This document shows, piece after piece, positions 1 through 12,617 of a stretch of 14,946 bases of DNA. The stretch comes from a bacterium (lineage in GTDB: Bacteria; Planctomycetota; J058; JAJDCP01): the NCBI GenBank assembly GCA_030428695.1, contig JAUIEM010000248.1:1-14946 (forward strand), given 5' to 3'. How positions within the stretch are numbered: position 1 is the first letter of the stretch; each line of letters starts with the position of its first letter. Made by a program: the position numbers and the translations under genes. Below the pieces are notes generated by a model, which was given only the letters and a program-made list of their open reading frames with translations, did no database searches and was not told where the DNA came from.

Positions 1-92
1 ACGCGGAAGGCCCCGAACTCGCGGTACAGGACGGTCGCCTGGAGGCGCCAGGTGTCTTCGGCTTTCCAATGGGGCAGGGCGAAGGCGGCCAT
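1..92 (-). CDS. Unrecognised protein, N-terminal 30 codons (runs off left edge)
   Basis: An ATG at 92 opens a reading frame that stays open to base 1. The protein starts MAAFALPHWKAEDTW and continues with an aromatic and charged stretch ending REFGAFR. A strong GAGGAG Shine-Dalgarno lies seven bases upstream (about 100-105), which is the main support for a real start. The gene is co-directional with the 655-aa gene, 65 bp downstream of its stop, and a GC-rich hairpin lies between them. No signal peptide or membrane segment is visible in the 30 residues available. I do not recognise the family and the fragment is too short to assign one. Being third in the cluster, it may work with the two upstream proteins, but that is inference. 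Confidence 0.6.
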   Translation of the reverse strand, partial: MAAFALPHWKAEDTWRLQATVLYREFGAFR

Positions 93-157: not shown

Positions 158-2125
158 TTATGCAAACTTCTCGCGCACGGCGACAACGCCCGTCTTGACA
201 AAATCGTGGGTGACGTAGAAGTTGCCGAGCCCGAAGTCGTCGTCGCCGTCGGCCTTCTTGCGTTCGGCAGCCATGCCCTTGACGCGGCTGAGGTAGGTGA
301 TCATGTACACCTCGCCCTCGTCCCAGCCGTTGCCCTGGGCGGTGAAGGACTTGACCACCGACTTCGTCGCGGCGCCGGCGTCGCTGTAGGTCTCCTCCAT
401 CTTCATCGTCCGGCCCCACCACTTCTTGACCTCGATCTCGCCCTCGCTGTTGACGACGCAGTTCTCCTCGCCGAGCACGTTCGCGTTGTCGATGTTGAAG
501 TAGAAGATGTTCTCGGTCTCGAGGTTCTTCTCGTCCTTGTCCTCGGGCTGGCTGTAGTTCGTGCGGACGTACATCGCGCAGTTGTTCCAGATCGCCGCCG
601 GGCCCGCCGCGGCCTGGTTCGAGCGGATGTCGCCCATGCAGGGGTCCTGGTCGTCCGCCATCATCCGGTAGATGTTCGCGACGAAGTCGGGGCCGATCTC
701 GTTCCACAGCTCCTTGACGCTGTTGTTGAACGCCTCGGCGCCGCCGTGGGCCTTGATGATCCGGTCGGCCTCCTCCTGGCACTGCGGATCGGTCATCTGG
801 ACGAACTTCTTGCCGTTGTACATCTGGTCGCGGTGGTACTTGTCCTTCAGGGCGTCCTTGAGCCCGGCGGCGGGATTCTGTTCCCCGGGCTTGAGCACCG
901 ACATCAGGTTGAGCTTCTTCGCGTTGCTGTTCTCGAAGTCGCCGTAGACGTACTTGACGTTGACGTACACGTACTTCGGCTTCAGCCCCCAGCCGCCGCC
1001 CTTGAACTGGGCGTAGTTGCCGGTGACCTCGGCGACGAGCAGCTGCAGGTCGGCGATCGAGAAGTTCTCGCCGTTGTGGTTGGTCGCCTTGACGTCCTTG
1101 AACAGCATCGAGCTCGGCGCGGAGTTGTGGCAGTGGCCGGCCCAGCCCGGCTGGCTCGGCCGGCTGTGGCCGAGGTCGGCGCGCTCGTAGACCTTGTCCG
1201 CGGCCTTCTTGACGACCTCGGCGTGGCCCTTGGCGACGCCGTCGGCGACCGCGTCCTTGCCGCCGGCCTCCCACCAGCGCGGGTGGTCGACCTTGTCCGG
1301 CGTGAAGGCGCGGCCGAACTTCGCGAACAGCGAGTCGTTGCCTTCCCAGGCGGTCGTCTTGTTGACCGGCCAGTAGTAGAAGTGCCACGGGAACAGGGGC
1401 GCGCCGTCCTTCTCGCGCGGGATCGCCTCGGTGTAGAAGGTCGCGGTCAGGTCACAGGGCTTCGACACCCGGACGTAGAACCACTTGTAGTCGTCCTTCT
1501 TGATGTCGAAGCCGAGCTCGGAGCCGCCCTTGACCGGCTTCTCCTCGCCGGTCGGGTTGGCCTTGTCGTCGCGGTCCTTCGCCTTGTAGGGGGTCTTGAG
1601 GTCGGGGTGGAAGACCTCGACGGTCGCGGCGTTGTCGCTGCACAGGAGGCGCATGCGGCCCGCCCGCTTGACCGGCTTGTAGATCTTGACCACCTCGCCG
1701 GGCCCGACCTTGGTCGGCGCGTCCTTGTTCAGGCGGCCCTTGACCACCTTGCCCTTGAGCTTGACCTGGAGCTTGCCGCCGCTCGGCTTGCCGGTGTTGA
1801 CCTTCTGGCAGTCCTTCTCGGTCAGCTTGCTCTCGAGCTCGTTGCGCGGGATCGAGGCGGCGCTGTAGTAGAAGTTGTACTCGCGCCCGCTGAACAGCTT
1901 GCCGCCGACGCCCTGGGGGCTGAGCTTGAAGCTGTTCTCGAGGATGAACTTGTTGTCGCCGGGCACGTCGGTGTAGACGTACAGGTCCGCCGCCGAGCCC
2001 TCGCCGACCTTCTCCCCGAAGCTGCCATCCGGCTTCACGTCGTGGTAGTCGAGGGTGTACTGCACGCTGTACACGCTCGGGTTGTCGACGTCTCCGCTGC
2101 CCGTGTTCCAATCGAATCCCGGCAT
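158..2125 (-). CDS. 655-aa protein with transglutaminase-elicitor-like cysteine enzyme region
   Basis: The ATG at 2125 has a strong GAGGGGAG ribosome binding site about seven bases upstream. The first ~230 residues are Lys-, Tyr- and Val-rich and look like one or two beta-sandwich domains. Around residues 326-339 is a QPGWAGHCHNSAPSS motif with Cys332 as candidate nucleophile, preceded by an HPRWWEAGG segment (281-289) and followed by an IWNNCAMYVRTNY segment (512-524). That W-x-G-x-C-[HN]-x-x-x-P pattern, with a later W-N-x-x-x-x-Y, resembles the transglutaminase elicitor family known from Phytophthora GP42 and some Vibrio, whose core is papain-like. There is no signal peptide and no membrane segment, so export, if any, would need a specialised route. 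It lies 26 bp after the 123-aa gene, probably in one transcript. The enzyme assignment rests on motif memory only. A transglutaminase, a protease and an inactive relative remain possible. Confidence 0.6.
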   Translation of the reverse strand: MPGFDWNTGSGDVDNPSVYSVQYTLDYHDVKPDGSFGEKVGEGSAADLYVYTDVPGDNKFILENSFKLSPQGVGGKLFSGREYNFYYSAASIPRNELESKLTEKDCQKVNTGKPSGGKLQVKLKGKVVKGRLNKDAPTKVGPGEVVKIYKPVKRAGRMRLLCSDNAATVEVFHPDLKTPYKAKDRDDKANPTGEEKPVKGGSELGFDIKKDDYKWFYVRVSKPCDLTATFYTEAIPREKDGAPLFPWHFYYWPVNKTTAWEGNDSLFAKFGRAFTPDKVDHPRWWEAGGKDAVADGVAKGHAEVVKKAADKVYERADLGHSRPSQPGWAGHCHNSAPSSMLFKDVKATNHNGENFSIADLQLLVAEVTGNYAQFKGGGWGLKPKYVYVNVKYVYGDFENSNAKKLNLMSVLKPGEQNPAAGLKDALKDKYHRDQMYNGKKFVQMTDPQCQEEADRIIKAHGGAEAFNNSVKELWNEIGPDFVANIYRMMADDQDPCMGDIRSNQAAAGPAAIWNNCAMYVRTNYSQPEDKDEKNLETENIFYFNIDNANVLGEENCVVNSEGEIEVKKWWGRTMKMEETYSDAGAATKSVVKSFTAQGNGWDEGEVYMITYLSRVKGMAAERKKADGDDDFGLGNFYVTHDFVKTGVVAVREKFA

Positions 2126-2151: not shown

Positions 2152-2523
2152 CTACTTGTGGGCGCACTGCTTCAACAGGTCTTTGCTCGCTGTGAGGTCC
2201 CGGAACAGGAAGTAGGTCTCGCCGCCGCCGGCGGACACGATCATCTCGTAGGTCTTCTCGGGCAGGACGCGCTCGAACACCAGCTTGCGTCCGCCGTCGA
2301 CCTCGAGGCCTTCCTCGATCTTGACGGTCTTCGTGTAGGAACCGTCGGTCGCTTTGAGCGTGACCGACTCGTCCTTCTGGAACTCGTCGCTGGCGTCGAA
2401 GTGCAGGCAGATCGCGACGTTGAAGAAGTTCCCCACCACCCGCAGGGTGATGCCCTTCTTGCCGGTCGGGATCTTGACCGACTTGGCCTTCTCCAGGTCG
2501 AGGACGATCTCGTTGTCGCTCAT
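2152..2523 (-). CDS. 123-aa unrecognised protein, probably beta-rich
   Basis: The protein begins MSDNEIVLDLEKAKSVK and is dominated by alternating hydrophobic and charged residues typical of beta strands, with a segment VLPEKTYEMIVSAGGGETYF near residues 82-101. It ends with a Cys-containing CAHK tail. No signal peptide or transmembrane helix is visible. I chose the ATG at 2523 because GGCAGGG precedes it at a workable distance; an in-frame ATG at 2574 would add 17 residues that look non-conserved and basic. It is first in a minus-strand cluster, 26 bp before the 655-aa cysteine-enzyme-like gene. The spacing suggests co-expression and possibly a partner, adaptor or inhibitor role. The tyrosine- and glycine-rich hairpin pattern loosely resembles the N-terminal region of the 655-aa protein (residues 44-91), which might mean a shared fold. 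No function is assigned. Confidence 0.7.
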   Translation of the reverse strand: MSDNEIVLDLEKAKSVKIPTGKKGITLRVVGNFFNVAICLHFDASDEFQKDESVTLKATDGSYTKTVKIEEGLEVDGGRKLVFERVLPEKTYEMIVSAGGGETYFLFRDLTASKDLLKQCAHK

Positions 2524-2620
2524 CGCGTAGCCCTGCCGTTCTCCGGGTTTCGGCTTAATGGTACCGAACGGCACGCCGCCTCTCGAGTCCCGACCGCGAC
2601 TTTCTGACCACGCGGAGCGT

Positions 2621-4855: not shown

Positions 4856-6445
4856 TCAGTGCTTCAACACCTCGACCGGCTGCACCCAGGACGCCTTCAG
4901 CGCCGGGATCAGCCCGGCCAGCAGGCTGAAGCCCGCGCCGAGGGCGAAGATCAGCACCTGGGCCTGCCAGTCCATCGCCGGCGCCGCGACCGGCGCGCTG
5001 CCTTCGACGGTCGCGAGCAGCCGCGCCCCGAAGGCGAGCACGCCCGCCCGCGCGGCGGCCTGGCCGAGCAGGGCCCCGAAGGCGCCGACCACCAGCGCCT
5101 CGAACAGGAAGATGGTCAGGATGTCGACGCGCCGGGCGCCGACCGCCCGCAGGATGCCGATACGCCGCTGCTGCTCGAGGACGGACAGGCTCAGCCCGTA
5201 GACGATCACCGTGCCCGCCATCGCGAACAACAACAGGGAGATGATCAGGGTCGCCTGCTCGAGGGTGGTGTTGAGCTCGCTCGCCCGCTCGCTCTCGCCC
5301 TTGAGCCGCGCCCCCTCGGCGGACAGCTCGGCGAGCTGGCGGTCGAGGCGGCGGGCCTCTTCGATCTGGGCCTCGACCTTGTAGCCCATCGCGTTGAGGC
5401 GGCTGTAGATCGCCAGGGTGGCGGCGAGGTCGCGGGTGACGACGTGGACCTCGCTGTAGGCGAGGTCGGTGTCCTTGGCGAGGACCCGCGTCAGCAGGCC
5501 GGCGTCGTCGTTGAAGGCCTGGTTCCACTCGTCGATGTAGGCGAGGGGAACCGACACGCCGGTGCCGGGGATGCGCTCGCTGTAGCCGACGATCTTCGTG
5601 CGGATGCCCTGGCCGCGGGCGTCGATGCCCGGGAACAGGGTCAGCTCGATCGACTCGGCGAGGCGCTCGCGGTCGAGGGCCGAGAGCAATTCGCCCATCG
5701 CGTCCTCGATCACGTCCTTCAACAGCGGCGCCGTCACCGCGTTCAGCCCGAAGAACTGCTTGGCGCGCTGCTCGATGCGGCGGCGGAAGTCGGCGTCGCG
5801 CTCCATACGGCGGGTGATCTCGGTCACGACCATCTCGGCGAAGCGCCGGCGCATGTCCTCGGTCTTCAGCGTGGTCAGGTAATCGAGCCAGTCGGCGGGG
5901 AGCACGACCGGCACGACCCGGTCGGGCTCGCCGACCGGGTCGAAGACCGCGTTCGGCAGGAGCTCGGCGGGGGTCATGAAGCCCGGGGCGATGCCGTACA
6001 CCGTCGTCGGGATCTTCATCTCGTTCTGGAAGGACTCCGGCTGCATGCCCATGATCGCGAGGTTCTTCCCGCGCACCCCGACGGTGACCGGGAACAGGAA
6101 CGCGACCGGCGTGACCGACACCACCCCCGGGAGCTGCTCGAGCTCGGCGACCTCGGCGGCGCCGATGCGCTCCTTGCGGTTGCTGCGGGGCCGCACCGTC
6201 AGCTGGTTGACCGGCAGCGAGGCGAGCAGCTCATCCTGCTGGGCGAGCAGCTCCTGGCGCTCGGCCATCACCGCCTGGAAGGCCTGCAGGTTGCCCTCGA
6301 CCTGCTGGCGGATGCCCCCGGACAGGGCGAGCAGGAAGGCGAGCGTGCCGGTGCCGACGGCGACCCCGAGGATCAGGAACAGCGTGCGGCCGAGGCGCGA
6401 GACCAGGTTGCCGACCGACATGCGGAGCAGATGCGGCAGCACCAT
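4856..6445 (-). CDS. ABC transporter permease, FtsX/MacB type
   Basis: This 529-aa inner-membrane permease probably moves a lipid, lipoprotein or other envelope substrate, or transmits force across the membrane, using the ATPase encoded just upstream. It has the FtsX/MacB layout: one helix near the N-terminus (residues ~19-44), a very long periplasmic domain (~45-390), then three C-terminal helices (~397-418, 443-466, 497-513). The family motif GILRAVGAR lies at ~431-439 between helices two and three, and PVEVLKH ends the chain. A coiled-coil-like segment (~345-385, EEARRLDRQLAEL onward) precedes helix two, as in MacB-like stalks. The ATG at 6445 overlaps the ATPase stop as TGATG, indicating translational coupling. 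The frame is open further upstream to 6598, but that extension is only repeat-derived GIGL residues and overlaps the ATPase. The periplasmic part is longer than in LolC/E-like permeases, so the substrate is uncertain. Confidence 0.9.
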   Translation of the reverse strand: MVLPHLLRMSVGNLVSRLGRTLFLILGVAVGTGTLAFLLALSGGIRQQVEGNLQAFQAVMAERQELLAQQDELLASLPVNQLTVRPRSNRKERIGAAEVAELEQLPGVVSVTPVAFLFPVTVGVRGKNLAIMGMQPESFQNEMKIPTTVYGIAPGFMTPAELLPNAVFDPVGEPDRVVPVVLPADWLDYLTTLKTEDMRRRFAEMVVTEITRRMERDADFRRRIEQRAKQFFGLNAVTAPLLKDVIEDAMGELLSALDRERLAESIELTLFPGIDARGQGIRTKIVGYSERIPGTGVSVPLAYIDEWNQAFNDDAGLLTRVLAKDTDLAYSEVHVVTRDLAATLAIYSRLNAMGYKVEAQIEEARRLDRQLAELSAEGARLKGESERASELNTTLEQATLIISLLLFAMAGTVIVYGLSLSVLEQQRRIGILRAVGARRVDILTIFLFEALVVGAFGALLGQAAARAGVLAFGARLLATVEGSAPVAAPAMDWQAQVLIFALGAGFSLLAGLIPALKASWVQPVEVLKH

Positions 6446-7239
6446 CAGGAAGCCCCCCCGGTCGCTGGATCCGAGCCCGATTCCGAGTCCGATTCCGAGT
6501 CCGATTCCGATTCGGCAACGTGCCCGCGCCCGATTTTCCCTTTCCCTTCCGATCCCGCCCCCGCCGACTGGTCCGTGATCCGCCCGTCCTGCACCCACAG
6601 CGTGCGCAGCGCGGGGAGGCTGAGCTCGCGCTCGTGGGAGACCAGCATCACGGTGACGCCGTCCTTGCGCTGCAGCTCGAGAATCAGGGCGAGGATCTCG
6701 TCGCCGGTGTGCGAGTCGAGGTTGGCGGTCGGCTCGTCGGCGAGCAGCAGCGCCGGCTTGTTGATCAGCGCCCGGGCGAGGGCGACCCGCTGCTTCTGCC
6801 CGGCGGACAGGTTGCGGGCGCGCACGTCGACCTTCGAAGCGAGGCCGACCCGGGCCAGGAACTCCGCCGAGCGGCGCCGGCGCTCGGCGGCGCTGACCGA
6901 GGCGAAGACCAGCGGCAGGCTGACGTTCTCGACCGCGGTGCGGTTCGGCTCGAGGTAGAAGCTCTGGAAGACGTAGCCGATGTGCTGGTTGCGGAAGCGC
7001 GACAACGCCCCGTCCCCGAGCTCGGTCAGGTCGCTGCCGTCGACGACGACCGTACCGGAGGTCGGCTGGTCGAGGCCGGCGAGCAGGTTGAGCAGGGTCG
7101 TCTTGCCCGAGCCGGAGGGGCCGCGGACGATGACGAACTCGCCCGCGGCGACCTCGAGGTCGACCTCGCGCAGGGCGTGGACGGCGGTCTCCCCGCGGCC
7201 GAAGACGCGGCCGACTCCCTTCAGTGCAATCGCTGGCAT
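6445..7239 (-). CDS. ABC transporter ATP-binding protein, LolD/MacB type
   Basis: All nucleotide-binding motifs are intact: Walker A GPSGSGKT (residues 40-47), Q-loop FQSF (Gln92), signature LSAGQ (144-148), Walker B LLLADEP (164-170) with catalytic Glu169, D-loop NLDSH and the H-loop His202 in VSHE. The order and spacing fit the LolD/MacB/FtsE clade of ATPases that drive FtsX-fold permeases, and the partner permease is the next gene. The ATPase core ends near residue 224. A 40-residue low-complexity tail rich in Ser, Glu and Asp follows (SESDSESDSESGSD), encoded by a 12-bp DNA repeat, which is unusual for this family. Start ATG 7239 has GAGG about five bases upstream. It lies 19 bp after trpS and shares TGATG with the permease. 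It acts at the cytoplasmic face of the inner membrane. Confidence 0.93.
   Translation of the reverse strand: MPAIALKGVGRVFGRGETAVHALREVDLEVAAGEFVIVRGPSGSGKTTLLNLLAGLDQPTSGTVVVDGSDLTELGDGALSRFRNQHIGYVFQSFYLEPNRTAVENVSLPLVFASVSAAERRRRSAEFLARVGLASKVDVRARNLSAGQKQRVALARALINKPALLLADEPTANLDSHTGDEILALILELQRKDGVTVMLVSHERELSLPALRTLWVQDGRITDQSAGAGSEGKGKIGRGHVAESESDSESDSESGSDPATGGAS
6471..6515. repeat. 12-bp tandem repeat at the 3' end of the ATPase gene
   Basis: The unit CCGAGTCCGATT occurs three times from 6471 to 6506 (first copy CCGAGCCCGATT) and continues as a partial copy to about 6515. Because 12 is a multiple of three, copy number can change without frameshift. In the ATPase frame it encodes the acidic Ser-Asp-Glu tail; in an overlapping minus-strand frame it encodes GIGL repeats, which explains the spurious upstream extension of the permease reading frame. 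Confidence 0.85.
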
Positions 7240-7258
7240 CGGTCCTCTTTCGGGGCGC

Positions 7259-8299
7259 TCAACTTCCGAGCTTGAGAATGCCGCAGGCCTCGCGGACCTC
7301 GGCCATCAGCGGACCCGCGACCTCGCGGGCCCGGCGCGCGCCGGCGCGCAGCACATCCTCGACGAAGTCGGGATCCTTCTCGAGCGCGAGCCGGCGCTCG
7401 CGCATCGGGCCGATGTGGGCCTCGGCGAGCTCGGCGAGGCGCTTCTTGACCGCCCCGTAGCCGGTGCCGCCGGTGCGGTAACGCGCGTCCCATTCCGCCA
7501 TCTCTTCGGCCGCGGCGAACAGCTTGAGCAGGGCGAAGACCGTGCAGCCCGCCGGGTCCTTCGGCTCCTCGACCGTCGCGCTGTCGGTCTTGATCGACAT
7601 CACCTTCTTCTTCGTGCGCTTCTTCGTCTCGAACAGCGGGATCGAGTTGCCGTAGCTCTTGCTCATCTTCGCGCCGTCCAGCCCGGGCACGATCGCCGCC
7701 TCGGTGACGCGCGCCTGCGGCATCGCGAAGACCTCGCAGCCAAAGGTGGTGTGGAAGCGGGTCGCGAAGCGCCGGGTCATCTCGACGTGCTGCAGCTGGT
7801 CCTCGCCGACCGGCACGATCTCGCCTTTGACGATCAGGATGTCGGCCGCCATCAACAGCGGATAGGTGAAGAGCCCGGCGTTCGCGGCCAGGCCGCGCTC
7901 GACCTTGTCCTTGTAGCTGACCGCCCGCTCGAGGTCGCCCATCCCGACCTGGCAGGCGAGGATCCAGGCGAGCTCGGTGACCTCGGGCACGTCGCTCTGT
8001 CGGTACAGCGTCGCGCGCTCGGGGTCGAGGCCGACCGCGAGGTAGTCGAGGGCCACATCGCGGGTCTGCTTGCGCAGCACCTCGGCGTCCGAGATCGTCG
8101 TCAACGAGTGGTAGTTGGCGATGAAGTAGTAGCCTTCGCCCTGGTCCTGCAGGTCGACGTGCTGGACCATCGCCCCGAAGTAGTTGCCCCAGTGGACCTG
8201 GCCCGAGGGCTGGATGCCTGACAGCAGCCTGCGGCCGGTCACGCTCCCGGCGGCGAGCAGGCTCGGGCGCCGCTTCTCGTCGCTGTTGTGCGGGGCCAT
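7259..8299 (-). CDS. trpS: Tryptophanyl-tRNA synthetase
   Basis: The enzyme charges tRNA-Trp with tryptophan in the cytosol and is a class I aminoacyl-tRNA synthetase. The first signature is present as PSGQVHWGNY (residues 31-40), and the second is the perfect KMSKS at 211-215 within LDGAKMSKSYGN. Further family landmarks are LLMAADIL (148-155) and VPVGEDQLQHVEMTRR (162-177), which lines the active site. The length of 346 residues is close to the usual ~330. A polylysine-like loop (KKRTKKKVM, 226-234) follows KMSKS. I chose ATG 8299 because GGAGGAG sits six bases upstream; the frame is open to 8500, but that extension lacks conserved sequence. It appears to be the first gene of a minus-strand unit with the ABC ATPase 19 bp downstream, a grouping I take as positional and not functional. 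Confidence 0.97.
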   Translation of the reverse strand: MAPHNSDEKRRPSLLAAGSVTGRRLLSGIQPSGQVHWGNYFGAMVQHVDLQDQGEGYYFIANYHSLTTISDAEVLRKQTRDVALDYLAVGLDPERATLYRQSDVPEVTELAWILACQVGMGDLERAVSYKDKVERGLAANAGLFTYPLLMAADILIVKGEIVPVGEDQLQHVEMTRRFATRFHTTFGCEVFAMPQARVTEAAIVPGLDGAKMSKSYGNSIPLFETKKRTKKKVMSIKTDSATVEEPKDPAGCTVFALLKLFAAAEEMAEWDARYRTGGTGYGAVKKRLAELAEAHIGPMRERRLALEKDPDFVEDVLRAGARRAREVAGPLMAEVREACGILKLGS

Positions 8300-8339
8300 G
8301 TGTGCTCCTCCGTGTCTGTCCGTGTGACAGCAGGCCGCG

Positions 8340-8345
8340 ATTCTA
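8340..8345 (-). promoter_or_regulatory. Candidate -10 element for trpS
   Basis: Read on the minus strand, TAGAAT (5/6 to consensus) lies about 40 bases before the trpS start, predicting a ~34-nt leader that includes the GGAGGAG site. A -35 is poor: CTGCAT at 17-bp spacing. It sits back-to-back with the plus-strand TATAAT at 8400. Confidence 0.45.
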
Positions 8346-8399
8346 GCGCATGGCGGCGGAAAATGCAGCTGCTTCGGTGGCGCGGATGGCGGAGGCTTG

Positions 8400-8405
8400 T
8401 ATAAT
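8400..8405 (+). promoter_or_regulatory. Perfect -10 box (TATAAT) for the SRPBCC-like gene
   Basis: A perfect TATAAT stands out in this GC-rich DNA, on the plus strand between two divergent genes. At 17-bp spacing the -35 position reads GTGGCG, only 3/6, so an activator or a strong -10 may compensate. A start near 8412 would give a leader of about 115 bases before the ATG at 8527, long enough to hold regulatory structure, although I see no recognisable riboswitch in it. Confidence 0.5.
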
Positions 8406-8526
8406 CCCACCATCGTTTCCTGGTCCGGACCCCCTGTGCTTCGCGCGCTCGCCGCGAGACGCATCCTCCGCTGGCCGGGACGGCAGGCACCGCAGCGCAA
8501 GTGGCAACCGCAGAGTGGACGGCAGC

Positions 8527-9129
8527 ATGGAAAACGAGCAGGACGCCCCGATCGAGACCTTGAGCATCTTCCACCACATGACGATCGACGCGTCCCTTGA
8601 CCGGGTCTGGCGCGTCTTCGGCGACCCCGCCTGTCCCTGGTTCTCCCGGGGCGGCGCGGTGTACGAGAACCGGCTCGGCGGCTTCCTCTCGCACCCTGAG
8701 CTCAAGATGCGGGCGGAGGTCACGCACTTCGCGGTCGGCCGCCGCGTCGTGTGGCAGCTCTACGTCGACGACAACCTCGGCACGACCGTCGAGTACCAGT
8801 TCGCCTGGGACGGCGACAACACCCACGTGTCCTTCCGCGAGGACGGCTGGGAGCAGGTGCCCGAGGAAGACCGCGACGAGTACTTCAAGCAGTCCCGCCA
8901 GAGCTGGCTGCAGATGCTCGACAACCTGAAGAGCTGCGCGGAAGCCGACGATCAGGAAGAGACCCTGCCCGGCGACGACGGCGAGCCTGCGGGTGACGAC
9001 GAGGTCACCGTCGACGCCGGTGACGACGAGGACACGGGCGGCGACGATGAAGCGTCGGACGACGGGGACGCGGGCGGCGACGACGAAGCGTCGGACGGCG
9101 ACGGCGAAGACGAAGAGACCAAAGAGTAA
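8527..9129 (+). CDS. SRPBCC/AHSA1-like protein with acidic repeat tail
   Basis: Residues ~10-135 match the look of SRPBCC (START/AHSA1) helix-grip domains: an opening strand HHMTIDASLDRVWRVFGDP, a central set of strands (YENRLGGFL, AEVTHFAVGRRVVWQLYV, TTVEYQFAW, THVSFREDGW) and a long C-terminal helix (residues ~117-136, YFKQSRQSWLQMLDNLKS). Such proteins bind hydrophobic ligands or act as Hsp90 co-chaperone-like factors; the ligand here is unknown. Residues 140-200 form a highly acidic, low-complexity tail of Asp, Glu and Gly with two copies of GGDDEASD (171-178 and 183-190). There is no signal peptide, so it should be cytosolic. The ATG at 8527 begins the conserved part; the frame is open back to 8350, but that stretch overlaps the promoter and lacks domain sequence. 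The ribosome binding site is weak. The gene is divergent from trpS and ends 7 bp from the convergent lipoprotein gene. Confidence 0.82.
   Translation: MENEQDAPIETLSIFHHMTIDASLDRVWRVFGDPACPWFSRGGAVYENRLGGFLSHPELKMRAEVTHFAVGRRVVWQLYVDDNLGTTVEYQFAWDGDNTHVSFREDGWEQVPEEDRDEYFKQSRQSWLQMLDNLKSCAEADDQEETLPGDDGEPAGDDEVTVDAGDDEDTGGDDEASDDGDAGGDDEASDGDGEDEETKE
9035..9097 (+). repeat. Imperfect 36-bp-period direct repeat in the acidic tail
   Basis: Two 27-bp copies at 9035-9061 and 9071-9097 differ at one position (T/C, synonymous in Asp) and are offset by exactly 36 bp, encoding two 12-residue acidic units. The in-frame period suggests tail growth by slippage or unequal exchange. Confidence 0.8.
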
Positions 9130-9136
9130 CGACCGC

Positions 9137-11551
9137 TCACCACAAGTCGTGGAACAGGCGCTCCGCCTGTTCCCGGACGTACTCCTCGCTGACGTCCGCG
9201 AGCGGCGTCAGGGGCCCGTCCGGGTTCCCTTCGATCCCTTCGAGCAGCGACCGGAAGAGCGCGTCGGCCACCGCCCGGTAGGTCGGCGGCGGCTCCTCCA
9301 TCGCCGGGTCGTCGCGCAGGTACCAGCGGAAGGCGGGCTCCTGCTCCCGGGACTTCAGCCAGCGCAGGTTGACCGCCAGGGTCGGCCAGGGAACCTCGAG
9401 CTGGCTGAGGGCGTAGGCCTCCGCGACCAGCTCGAAGCGGGTCGCGAGGTTGTCCGCCGAGAAGCCCTCCTCGACGTTGCGCCACAGGTTCGACCACAGG
9501 TTGCTCCAGAACGGCGTCAGGTGCTGGAAGTCGATGATGTGCCCGATCTCGTGCAGGGTCACGCCCTCGATGTCGGCGCGCACGAGCTCGCCGATCCGCC
9601 AGTCCTCGACGCTCGTGCCGGGCGGTGGGGCGGGCAGGCCGGCGCTGAAGCGCTCGATCCAGTGCCGCCACAGCTCCGGATCGAAGTCGAGCCCGCGCAT
9701 CCGGCTCGCGACCTCGAGCAGGTCCCCGGAGGCGAGCTCGCTGACGCTGGCGCGGATCGCCTCGATGTCGACGTAGAAGCCGCGTCCGGTGAAGGTCGCG
9801 CAGCCCGCCACCCGTGACAGCCCCGCGTGGTGGCCGGCCAGGGAGCGGATGTAGCCCTCGCCGCACAGGAAGCCGTCGACCTCGAGGGTGTCGCCCTCGA
9901 TCAGCAGGCGGTGGCGGTCGCGGCGGATGATCGTCATCAGCTTCAGCTCGACGCCATCGCGGCCGGTCTGCAGGTCGAAGTACAGGCCGCGCTCGAGGAA
10001 GAAGCGCACCAGCGGCGCCTCGGGCGTCGCCAGCGGGCTCATCTCCGCGCCGTAGATCGACATCGACACCGCCTCGCCCGCGCCGGCGGGGAAGTCGGCC
10101 ACGCGCTGGCGGCAGATGTTCTCGAGGGCGGAGATCACGCTCTCGATCGCGATCGCCTCGCCGCCGGAGACCCGCGCGTAGTGCCGGTCGAAGTAGCGCC
10201 GCAGGGCGTCGACGGTGTCGAGCCAGATGCCGACCCGGAGGTGGCCGGCCTCCGCGGCGGCGAAGACCGTGCGGTCGATCACGGCGGCCTCGAGCTGGGC
10301 GGCCTGGAGCAGCCGGTGCCAGACCGAGCGCGCCTCCCACCACAGCCCGGCGCCCTCGTAGGCGATCGCGAGGTCGGCGAGCAGGCCGGGCAGCGTCTCC
10401 CGTTCCTCGGCGGCGAGGGCCGTGGCGACCGCGTCCGTCGCCGCGACGACCGGGCCGAGCCGGGTGTCCGCCTCCCACACCAGCCCCGGCAGACCGCGCA
10501 GCCAGATCTCCAAGGCCTGCTCGTACTTGCCGGCGGCGACCAGCTGCCGGCGCGCGGCGCGCGTCACCCCGGGGTTGTAGGGGTTGTTCTCGACCGCGAG
10601 CAGGATCGCGTGCTCGGCGTCGTAGAAGTTGCCCTCGGCGCGGTGGAAGTCGGCGAGGTAGTGCCACAGGCGGGAGGCCCGGGGGAAGCGCTCGAGGGCG
10701 CGCTGCACCAGCGCGCGGCCGCCGGCGAAGTCGCGCTCTTCGCCGAGGCCCGCGAGGCATTCGCTGACCGCGTAGAGGTACAGCTCCTCGGAGACCTCGA
10801 GGGCGGGAAACGCGAGCTCGAGGATCTCGAGCGCCCGCTCGGGCTGGTCGCGGCGCAGCTCGGCGAGGGCGAGCAGCCACGCGCCGCGCGGGCTCGGGGT
10901 CGCGTGGTGGGCGAGCTGCAGCACCTCGACCGCGCGCCGGTCGCAGGCCGCGAGCAGGGCGAGACCGCGGCGCTCGCGGTCGAGGGCGAGGGGGTCGTCG
11001 TCGGTCGCGGCGACGACGTCGAGGAAGAGCGGCCACGCGCGCTCGTACTCGCGCAGCTCGAGCAGCGACCAGCCGCACTCCGCCGCGGCGCGCAGCAGCG
11101 AGGGATCGAGCTGCCAGGCCGCCTCGAGGTGGCGCACCGCCTCCTCGTGCTGGCCCGCGAGCTGCAAGGCCTCGCCGAGCACGAAGCGCACGGTCGGGTC
11201 GTCCGGGGCCCGGTCGGCCAGGGCGCGCAGCCGCCCGAGGCGCTCGTCGCCGGGGCTGCGCAGGCGCTCGGCCAGCGCCTCCTGCCAGGGCGCGTGGCCG
11301 TCACCGTAGGAGAACAGGATGTCGCGGGCGCCGACCTGCAGGGTGAGGTCCTGCAGCTCGATGTGGGCGGCGGGGAAGCGCCGGTCGACGTCGAGGGCGG
11401 CCTGGTAGTAGCGGATCGCCCCGCCGTACTGGCCCTGGCGCTGGGTCGCCACCGCGCGCCGGAACGAAGGCATCCCCGGCCGCTCGAAGGCGCAGCCCGG
11501 GGCCAGGAAGGCGCACAGGGCAGAGAGAAGTAGGGTCGCCGTCGCTCGCAT
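9137..11551 (-). CDS. TPR lipoprotein with C-terminal HEIGH metallopeptidase-like domain
   Basis: An 804-aa protein starts with a lipoprotein signal peptide: MRATATLLLS, a hydrophobic core, then APGC with Cys20 as the lipid-bearing residue. Residues ~30-350 read as tandem TPR-like helical pairs (QYGGAIRYYQAALDVD, QHEEAVRHLEAAWQLDP, ERALEILELAF, NFYDAEHAILLAVENNPYNP, KYEQALEIW). A TPR array suits binding partner proteins in the periplasm or on the outer membrane. Near the C-terminus HEIGH (His667, Glu668, His671) forms a zinc-binding HExxH motif in GVTLHEIGHIIDF, and Glu711 in FELVAEAYA, 40 residues on, is a plausible third ligand, which is the gluzincin arrangement. The order TPR then peptidase suggests a surface or periplasmic protease with a recruitment domain; the substrate is unknown. 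ATG 11551 starts a good signal peptide; the ribosome binding site is weak, and an ATG at 11596 is possible. It is the last gene of a three-gene unit. Confidence 0.85.
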   Translation of the reverse strand: MRATATLLLSALCAFLAPGCAFERPGMPSFRRAVATQRQGQYGGAIRYYQAALDVDRRFPAAHIELQDLTLQVGARDILFSYGDGHAPWQEALAERLRSPGDERLGRLRALADRAPDDPTVRFVLGEALQLAGQHEEAVRHLEAAWQLDPSLLRAAAECGWSLLELREYERAWPLFLDVVAATDDDPLALDRERRGLALLAACDRRAVEVLQLAHHATPSPRGAWLLALAELRRDQPERALEILELAFPALEVSEELYLYAVSECLAGLGEERDFAGGRALVQRALERFPRASRLWHYLADFHRAEGNFYDAEHAILLAVENNPYNPGVTRAARRQLVAAGKYEQALEIWLRGLPGLVWEADTRLGPVVAATDAVATALAAEERETLPGLLADLAIAYEGAGLWWEARSVWHRLLQAAQLEAAVIDRTVFAAAEAGHLRVGIWLDTVDALRRYFDRHYARVSGGEAIAIESVISALENICRQRVADFPAGAGEAVSMSIYGAEMSPLATPEAPLVRFFLERGLYFDLQTGRDGVELKLMTIIRRDRHRLLIEGDTLEVDGFLCGEGYIRSLAGHHAGLSRVAGCATFTGRGFYVDIEAIRASVSELASGDLLEVASRMRGLDFDPELWRHWIERFSAGLPAPPPGTSVEDWRIGELVRADIEGVTLHEIGHIIDFQHLTPFWSNLWSNLWRNVEEGFSADNLATRFELVAEAYALSQLEVPWPTLAVNLRWLKSREQEPAFRWYLRDDPAMEEPPPTYRAVADALFRSLLEGIEGNPDGPLTPLADVSEEYVREQAERLFHDLW

Positions 11552-11627
11552 CGTCACGGTCCGCAGCCCGGTTTCCACCGACCCATCAGTCTGCATCACC
11601 GGAGCGCCCGCCGCAAGTGCACGCCTG

Positions 11628-12617
11628 TCATGCGTCTGCGACCGGATACGGGCCGTCCTCGAAGCGCTGCGGGTGGTAGGGCTTCGAGCCGACGGCGCGG
11701 GCGAGGGGGCTGCGCAGCTCTTCGCCGCGGCGCAGCCGCTCGAGCAGCGCCGCGAAGGTGTGCTCCGGCCGCCAGCCGAGCGCCTCCTGGGCGGCGGCCG
11801 GGCTGTACACCCGGTCGACCCCGTCGTGCATGCGCCAGCCGCGCTCCCGGTACACCTCCTCCCAGCCCGGCACCCGGACGCGCAGCACATCGGGCAGGGC
11901 GCCCCGCAGCCGCGGCAGGTCCTCGGGCAGGAAGGGCGGCGGGGCGCTGATGATGAAGCGCCCGAAGCCGAGCTCCCGCGCCCGGGCGGCCGCGAGCCGG
12001 CAGGCGGTGACGATGTCCGCGACGTCGACCCGCCGGTGCAGGTACTCGTTGAGCTTGAGGTTGTCGTCGGCGAAGGCGGCGCGGCGGGAGGGGTCGTCGT
12101 CGGCCTCGAGGAAGAAGCGCGAGGTGCGGAGCACGACGCAGGGCAGCCCCCGCTTGCGCGCGAACAGCTCGCAGAAGCTCTCGGCGGCGCCCTTGCTGAC
12201 CCCGTAGACGTTGCGCGCCAGGGGCCGCAGCGCCTCGGTCACCCACACCGTCGGGGCCTCCGGCGGCGGGCGCAGGGCATCGCCGAAGGCGCTGGTGGTG
12301 CTGATGAAGACGAAGGCCTCGACGCCGATCCGCGTCGCTTCCTCGAGCAGCGCCAGGGTGCCGGCGATGTTCGTCTCGACGAAGTCCTGCATGCGGTGGG
12401 TCGCGACGTGCGGCTTGTGCAGGGTGGCGGCGTGGAAGATCGCCGTGACGTCGGCGCAGGCCGTTCGCACGACCTCCGGGTCGGCGACCGAGCCGACCAG
12501 GTCGGTGAAGGGCGAGGGCAGGATGTCGAGCCCGCGCGCCTCGATCCCCTCCTCGCGGAAGGTCCGCATCAGCGCCTCGCCGAGGTGTCCGGCGCTTCCC
12601 GTGACCAGCGCGCGCAT
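11628..12617 (-). CDS. NAD(P)-dependent epimerase/dehydratase (extended SDR)
   Basis: A 329-aa extended short-chain dehydrogenase. The Rossmann glycine motif GSAGHLG lies at residues 7-13, with Asp31 placed to bind the adenosine ribose of NAD. The catalytic set is present: Ser/Thr in FISTTSAFG (~104-112) and Tyr138-x-x-x-Lys142 in YGVSKGAAE. The substrate half ends with GWRPEHTFAALLERL, a typical nucleotide-sugar epimerase ending. The likely reaction is oxidation-reduction of a nucleotide-linked sugar, but the substrate cannot be read from sequence. I chose ATG 12617 because GGGGAGG stands about six bases upstream; the ATG at 12632 would put that ribosome binding site inside the gene. It lies 18 bp after the membrane-protein gene and 76 bp before the lipoprotein gene, with which it probably forms an operon. 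Confidence 0.93.
   Translation of the reverse strand: MRALVTGSAGHLGEALMRTFREEGIEARGLDILPSPFTDLVGSVADPEVVRTACADVTAIFHAATLHKPHVATHRMQDFVETNIAGTLALLEEATRIGVEAFVFISTTSAFGDALRPPPEAPTVWVTEALRPLARNVYGVSKGAAESFCELFARKRGLPCVVLRTSRFFLEADDDPSRRAAFADDNLKLNEYLHRRVDVADIVTACRLAAARARELGFGRFIISAPPPFLPEDLPRLRGALPDVLRVRVPGWEEVYRERGWRMHDGVDRVYSPAAAQEALGWRPEHTFAALLERLRRGEELRSPLARAVGSKPYHPQRFEDGPYPVADA

Follow-up and report, generated by a model that had tools for sequence, protein, structure and literature searches.

We analysed the 14,946 nucleotides of contig JAUIEM010000248.1 from the Planctomycetota assembly GCA_030428695.1, a stretch called the window in the following, whose minus strand carries at 158..2125 (read from 2125 to 158) a gene for a protein of 655 residues, P0002. 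An earlier note made from the sequence alone had described this protein as a leaderless relative of GP42 with a papain-like core. The open reading frame (ORF) is real, as its homologues attest, a hydropathy heuristic likewise finds no signal peptide, and the motifs lie where that note had placed them: the proposed nucleophile Cys332 (1130-1132) with the flanking His331 and His333 in WAGHCHN (residues 328-334, 1124..1144), a WW pair before it at residues 284-285, and W513-N514-x4-Y519 after it (569..589), in which Asn514 is the candidate for the catalytic Asn that GP42 bears on strand 2. The three parts of the protein, all encoded on the minus strand, are a beta-rich N-terminal domain that is retained in the four closest proteins only (residues 1-117, 1775..2125), a beta sandwich resembling pre-peptidase C-terminal and collagen-binding domains (residues 121-232, 1430..1765) and the papain-like core of GP42 type (residues 236-655, 161..1420). 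A further minus-strand gene begins 65 bp 3' of the P0002 stop codon with an ATG at 92 and is interrupted by the contig end after its first 30 codons (1..92).

The GP42-type core of P0002

In the comparison of predicted structures the core has the GP42 fold, which supports the papain-type reading of the earlier note: GP42 of Phytophthora sojae (PDB 3TW5) scored 14.3 versus at most 4.8 for papain-like peptidases, with SERA5 and the calpains as the next-ranked enzymes. The GP42 entry was recovered only in a second pass with VIA-align, Foldseek by itself giving no match at E <= 0.001 for either model. At the level of profiles, hhalign returned a probability of 97.5% and an E-value of 5.5e-12 in the comparison with seven GP42-type proteins from Myxococcota. 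The Pfam family TGase_elicitor (PF16683), which the earlier note had named as the family to search, left P0002 unmatched at E <= 10 and scored below its gathering cut-off of 25 bits for P0003 (19.4), P0004 (16.7) and P0005 (17.9). For four homologues it was the sole family at E <= 10, and Transglut_core, the animal-type transglutaminase family (presumably PF01841), gave no match. As a lone query P0002 found nothing in Pfam, PHROGs, NCBIfam or the PDB beyond lines at chance level (FhuF at E 0.18 in NCBIfam and two PDB entries at E 0.45).

The conservation of Cys332 and its Trp in homologues, on which the earlier note had staked its reading, was computed and holds for the Cys, the Trp and the Asn. 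W513 is present in 30/30 and N514 in 29/30 proteins of a core set of 30 picked proteins, each of which was located by its Cys pattern; P0013, P0008, P0010 and the enzymes of loci L052 and L072 were left out of this set. By alignment, C332-H333 and N514 match the nucleophilic Cys followed by His and the Asn on strand 2 that are named in the published GP42 description, and every candidate for a GP42-type catalytic residue is present in P0002 and throughout a 14-row alignment. W513-N514 is aligned with the VWN of GP42 by way of L055, a secreted PF16683 protein from Myxococcota; since L055 bridges GP42 and the window, an earlier alignment of the second domain, pairing FHIASAN of GP42 with FNIDNAN of the window, was dropped and replaced by VWN/VWN.

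Relatives and their injection-gene neighbourhood

P0002 is a rare protein: a search among 5.8 billion proteins, in which the 7996 candidates with the most shared words were scored, gave three relatives at 43-63% identity, and a profile gave the same result. Ten proteins appeared in the final protein search, P0007-P0013 being the seven additions. Genome contigs yielded remote relatives, one from a Planctomycetota metagenome-assembled genome (MAG; locus L001) and a pair from Minicystis rosea (L002, L003). Matches at E <= 0.001 occur in 27/329 sampled genomes of Myxococcota and 12/392 of Planctomycetota, many of them being more distant forms with a leader. At E <= 1e-8, matches were found in 3/183 genomes of the Minicystis order and, in order-level searches, in 0/9 genomes around G401 and in 1/7 around G410 (G410 itself), and 40 pattern matches in viral contigs contained no relative. 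The same hydropathy heuristic sees no signal peptide in any of the eleven leaderless-type enzymes. In the tree, the window clade (P0002-P0005) is sister to L001 (support 100/99) and 11 of the 12 leaderless rows group together (91/89), L054 forming a long uncertain branch. P0013 and L053 were left out of this tree; because the C-terminus of P0013 fails to align, it is also absent from alignment A4 and from the core set. Our custom gene caller flagged no enzymes in L062, L066 and L071. Among the diverse forms encountered, L070 carries three related enzymes in a row (6154-12604; 606, 599 and 519 aa) with the motif WWGRCNN and a Cys without adjacent His, and a single protein at L063 (9240-11531) joins FG-GAP repeats to a following enzyme domain.

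Besides the window, seven leaderless loci are readable, and two of these carry a VgrG or baseplate-hub gene. At L072, VgrG (TIGR03361, 441 bits), the enzyme, a partner gene and a gene with LysM and peptidoglycan-binding (PGB) domains follow each other on one strand, and at L001 a hub gene lies about 2 kb upstream of the enzyme (PF05954 above the cut-off, the VgrG-related NF033848 below it). LysM/PGB genes are found within 0.8 kb of the enzyme at six of the seven loci, L001 being the exception, and each of the four Minicystis enzyme copies has one no more than 75 bp away; where scanned, PG_binding_1 was above and LysM below the cut-off. The gene caller had overlooked the one before L053. In Minicystis rosea these modules cluster at VgrG, 7 of 18 lying within 5 kb versus a random mean of 0.75 and maximum of 5 in 2000 draws (the 18 modules resulted from merging 20 matches, and several VgrG pieces in a single gene were taken as one), and three of the seven share one open frame with VgrG. 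TssC is present in this genome (G002) as well as in G843 and G308. Judged by the gene context of the relatives, delivery by type VI secretion has good support, by association, among the Myxococcota and is no more than plausible in the window's branch. As separate observations, the VgrG model TIGR03361 matches the M. rosea genome 79 times, and a 212-aa ORF without Pfam match directly before the L001 enzyme (L001:8348-8986) has, by eye, a C/H spacing like that of NlpC/CHAP hydrolases.

The partner family and the rest of the window

A gene of 222-286 aa lies downstream of the enzyme at L001, L052, L054, L063, L067, L072, L076 and L077 and upstream of it at L073, so that nine enzymes from two phyla have such a neighbour; none stands beside the enzymes of L002, L003 and L053. 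The nine partners form one family, as leave-one-out searches among 4680 six-frame ORFs find each of them (E 1e-21 to 0.02; an initial round with five partners recovered four). No match was obtained in Pfam (three of the nine tested), NCBIfam (two) or, by sequence, the PDB (one). The partner domain also forms the N-terminus of three secreted enzyme-bearing Myxococcota proteins, L083, L079 and L084, of which the two scanned reach 60.6 (L083) and 77.0 bits (L079) with PF16683. In both, HHH_3 matches above the cut-off right behind the best-matched transglutaminase part (L083:3125-6856, residues 629-685; L079:8275-10500, residues 578-637), a helix-hairpin-helix that is unusual in exported proteins.

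Partner and enzyme also tend to occur in the same genomes. Among the 386 Planctomycetota genomes that had no part in training the model, three of the seven partner-bearing ones carry the enzyme versus 6/386 overall (p 7e-5); in these three (G336, G348, G463) the two genes lie on separate contigs, and in a fourth partner-bearing genome an enzyme piece at a contig end adjoins the partner. Over all 392 genomes the co-occurrence is 9/13 (p 3e-13), a figure that is partly circular because the model was trained on six of them. At L091, L092, L093, L095 and L096 the sequence read around a partner-family gene shows no enzyme; these genes may be orphan immunity genes or have another function.

The partial gene at 1..92 of the window is probably a member of this family, judging from its first codons. 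It carries the W-x5-W signature of the partners with an 18-residue score of 16.6, compared with 13.1-24.4 for true partners and no more than 2.8 for 368 gene starts, and 3 of 100,000 shuffles reached it. The motif was already known when this test was set up, and nine of twelve partner blocks entered it; L001p, L054p and L084n escaped the anchoring pattern and were omitted. Tested with the whole profile, the 30-aa fragment gave a weak result (E 0.04-1.2, 0.61 in the full run; leave-one-out rank 3-7 among the non-training ORFs of the 4680).

On the other side, 26 bp upstream of the P0002 gene, a minus-strand ORF of 140 aa (2152..2574; 123 aa if the ATG at 2523 is used) had no family match in the library searches and could possibly encode an adaptor; it showed no resemblance to the P0002 N-terminus (hhalign E 0.49, probability 0.1). 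The remaining scanned genes are ordinary and encode a UDP-glucose pyrophosphorylase, a PASTA protein, an FtsX/MacB permease with its ABC ATPase, TrpS, an AHSA1-like protein and a TPR protein. TrpS does not by itself assign the window to a phylum, its best identity being about 60% in Planctomycetota (matches in 145/149 genomes) and 58% in Myxococcota (91/95); the enzyme tree, with L001 next to the window clade, favours Planctomycetota but is no proof. A 12-bp tandem repeat at 6470-6513 gives the ABC ATPase ORF a Ser-Glu/Ser-Asp run at its C-terminal end, tandem repeats at 9022-9109 encode the long acidic tail of the AHSA1-like protein (8527-9129), and the TPR protein (9137-11596) has a C-terminal HEIGH stretch that by eye resembles a zinc peptidase.

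Proposed mechanism, rival explanations and known systems

From our point of view, P0002 is rather likely to be an injected acyl-transferase of GP42 type that has its own partner for inhibition or immunity. The papain-fold enzyme, which lacks a signal peptide, would be exported by a contractile machine as its cargo, namely type VI secretion in the Myxococcota relatives and a machine not yet seen in the organism of the window. In a target protein, Cys332 would attack the side chain of a glutamine to form a thioester, which would be resolved via a lysine amine, yielding a cross-link, or via water, yielding deamidation; His333 or His331 could serve as base, with Asn514 in an orienting role. In the producing cell the downstream partner may keep the enzyme silent, as inhibitor or immunity protein. 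Going one step further, we tentatively suggest for the partner the role of a portable inhibitor that serves GP42-type enzymes as a prodomain at the N-terminus of secreted ones and as a separate immunity protein beside injected ones, an idea that is less likely than not.

Several observations weigh against this picture. The nearest VgrG is 21-62 kb away from the four Minicystis enzymes, and the Planctomycetota genome that contains L001 (G001) gave no TssC match, an absence of weak weight because G001 is a MAG. The enzymes of L052 (split across frames, with a reading frame that lacks the Cys motif) and L072 (interrupted by an in-frame TGA) appear to be either broken copies or errors in the sequence, and both were kept unaltered. 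The partner adjoins the enzyme at only four of the seven leaderless loci (L001, L052, L054, L072), and no enzyme lies around it in G336, G463, G368, G520, G431 and G348 (stretches of 3.5-17 kb, several limited by contig ends). Since the partners of leaderless enzymes are leaderless at L052, L072 and the window start and lipoprotein-like at L001 and L054, they fix no compartment of action. Finally, the 14.9-kb window holds no injection gene (no hub, VgrG or LysM/PGB gene), its contig ending 158 bp past the P0002 gene.

This last point, together with the fact that the clade P0002-P0005 offers no readable locus except L001, would suit an intracellular enzyme unconnected to injection, for which the Myxococcota neighbourhood is irrelevant. 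We regard this as distinctly unlikely, as it is L001, the sister of that clade, that has the hub gene, and as the family is sporadic and divergent, contrary to housekeeping genes. Somewhat less unlikely is that the injected protein is a papain-superfamily peptidase or a cell-wall amidase and not a glutamine acyl-transferase. SERA5 and the calpains rank directly behind GP42, neighbouring genes bear peptidoglycan-binding domains, and the report on the toxin EAT14, associated with extracellular contractile injection systems (eCIS), voices the same doubt (PMC11297309). However, these peptidases stay far below the GP42 score, the Cys-His pair is arranged as in the GP42 description, and peptidoglycan-binding domains are also found in VgrG-linked genes, so that they may serve delivery. 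That P0002 is a catalytically dead member retained for binding appears very improbable: the active-site loop of the model has low confidence and degraded copies such as that of L052 exist, but the set of candidate catalytic residues is complete.

For the partner, a role as substrate, activator or folding helper has a real chance of being correct, if a smaller one than not, and is about as probable as the portable inhibitor. Immunity would be superfluous in the three secreted fusions, secreted enzymes have secreted partners and both therefore travel together, and stand-alone copies exist with no enzyme nearby. Yet an N-terminal fusion combined with trans copies beside cargo enzymes suits a prodomain or inhibitor equally well.

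If the injected acyl-transferase is confirmed, a cross-linking or deamidating enzyme of GP42 type would join the cargo of contractile injection systems, and a gene-encoded inhibitor would become available for this enzyme class. If the portable inhibitor is correct, the inhibitor of a zymogen would have become, or arisen from, the immunity gene that accompanies an injected class of protein-crosslinking toxins in Myxococcota and Planctomycetota, and whether prodomain and immunity protein are exchanged for one another could be put to a direct test.

By its title, the study of Reiss et al. 2011 reportedly links GP42 with oomycetes and marine Vibrio. Compared with the GP42 type as represented by PF16683, which is secreted with a leader, P0002 has no signal peptide, a His on either side of the Cys, a long beta-rich N-terminus and a Pfam score below the cut-off. 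The secreted, lipoprotein-like PF16683 proteins of Myxococcota (L055-L061; 308 bits for L055, the one scanned) have the GP42-type core in common with P0002, but they bear leaders, in L055 also C-terminal PPC repeats, and the motif G-[VI]-C-H-A-W in place of G-H-C-H-N. EAT14 is likewise an injected-toxin candidate with a papain-superfamily transglutaminase-like domain, but it carries DUF4157 and is likened to PDB 5M6Q and not to GP42 (PMC11297309). L072, with a leaderless enzyme, VgrG and a candidate immunity gene in a row, resembles type VI cargo effectors with immunity genes, whereas the window has no VgrG, the partner family is also fused to secreted enzymes and its immunity function is a candidate one. 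Titles and abstract openings within our literature coverage, to which most subscription journals do not belong, mention neither GP42-type injected effectors nor this partner family. What the present analysis adds to these known systems is a partner family without description in the libraries tried, and the GP42 fold with its active-site residues in Myxococcota and Planctomycetota, partly in leaderless proteins near injection genes.
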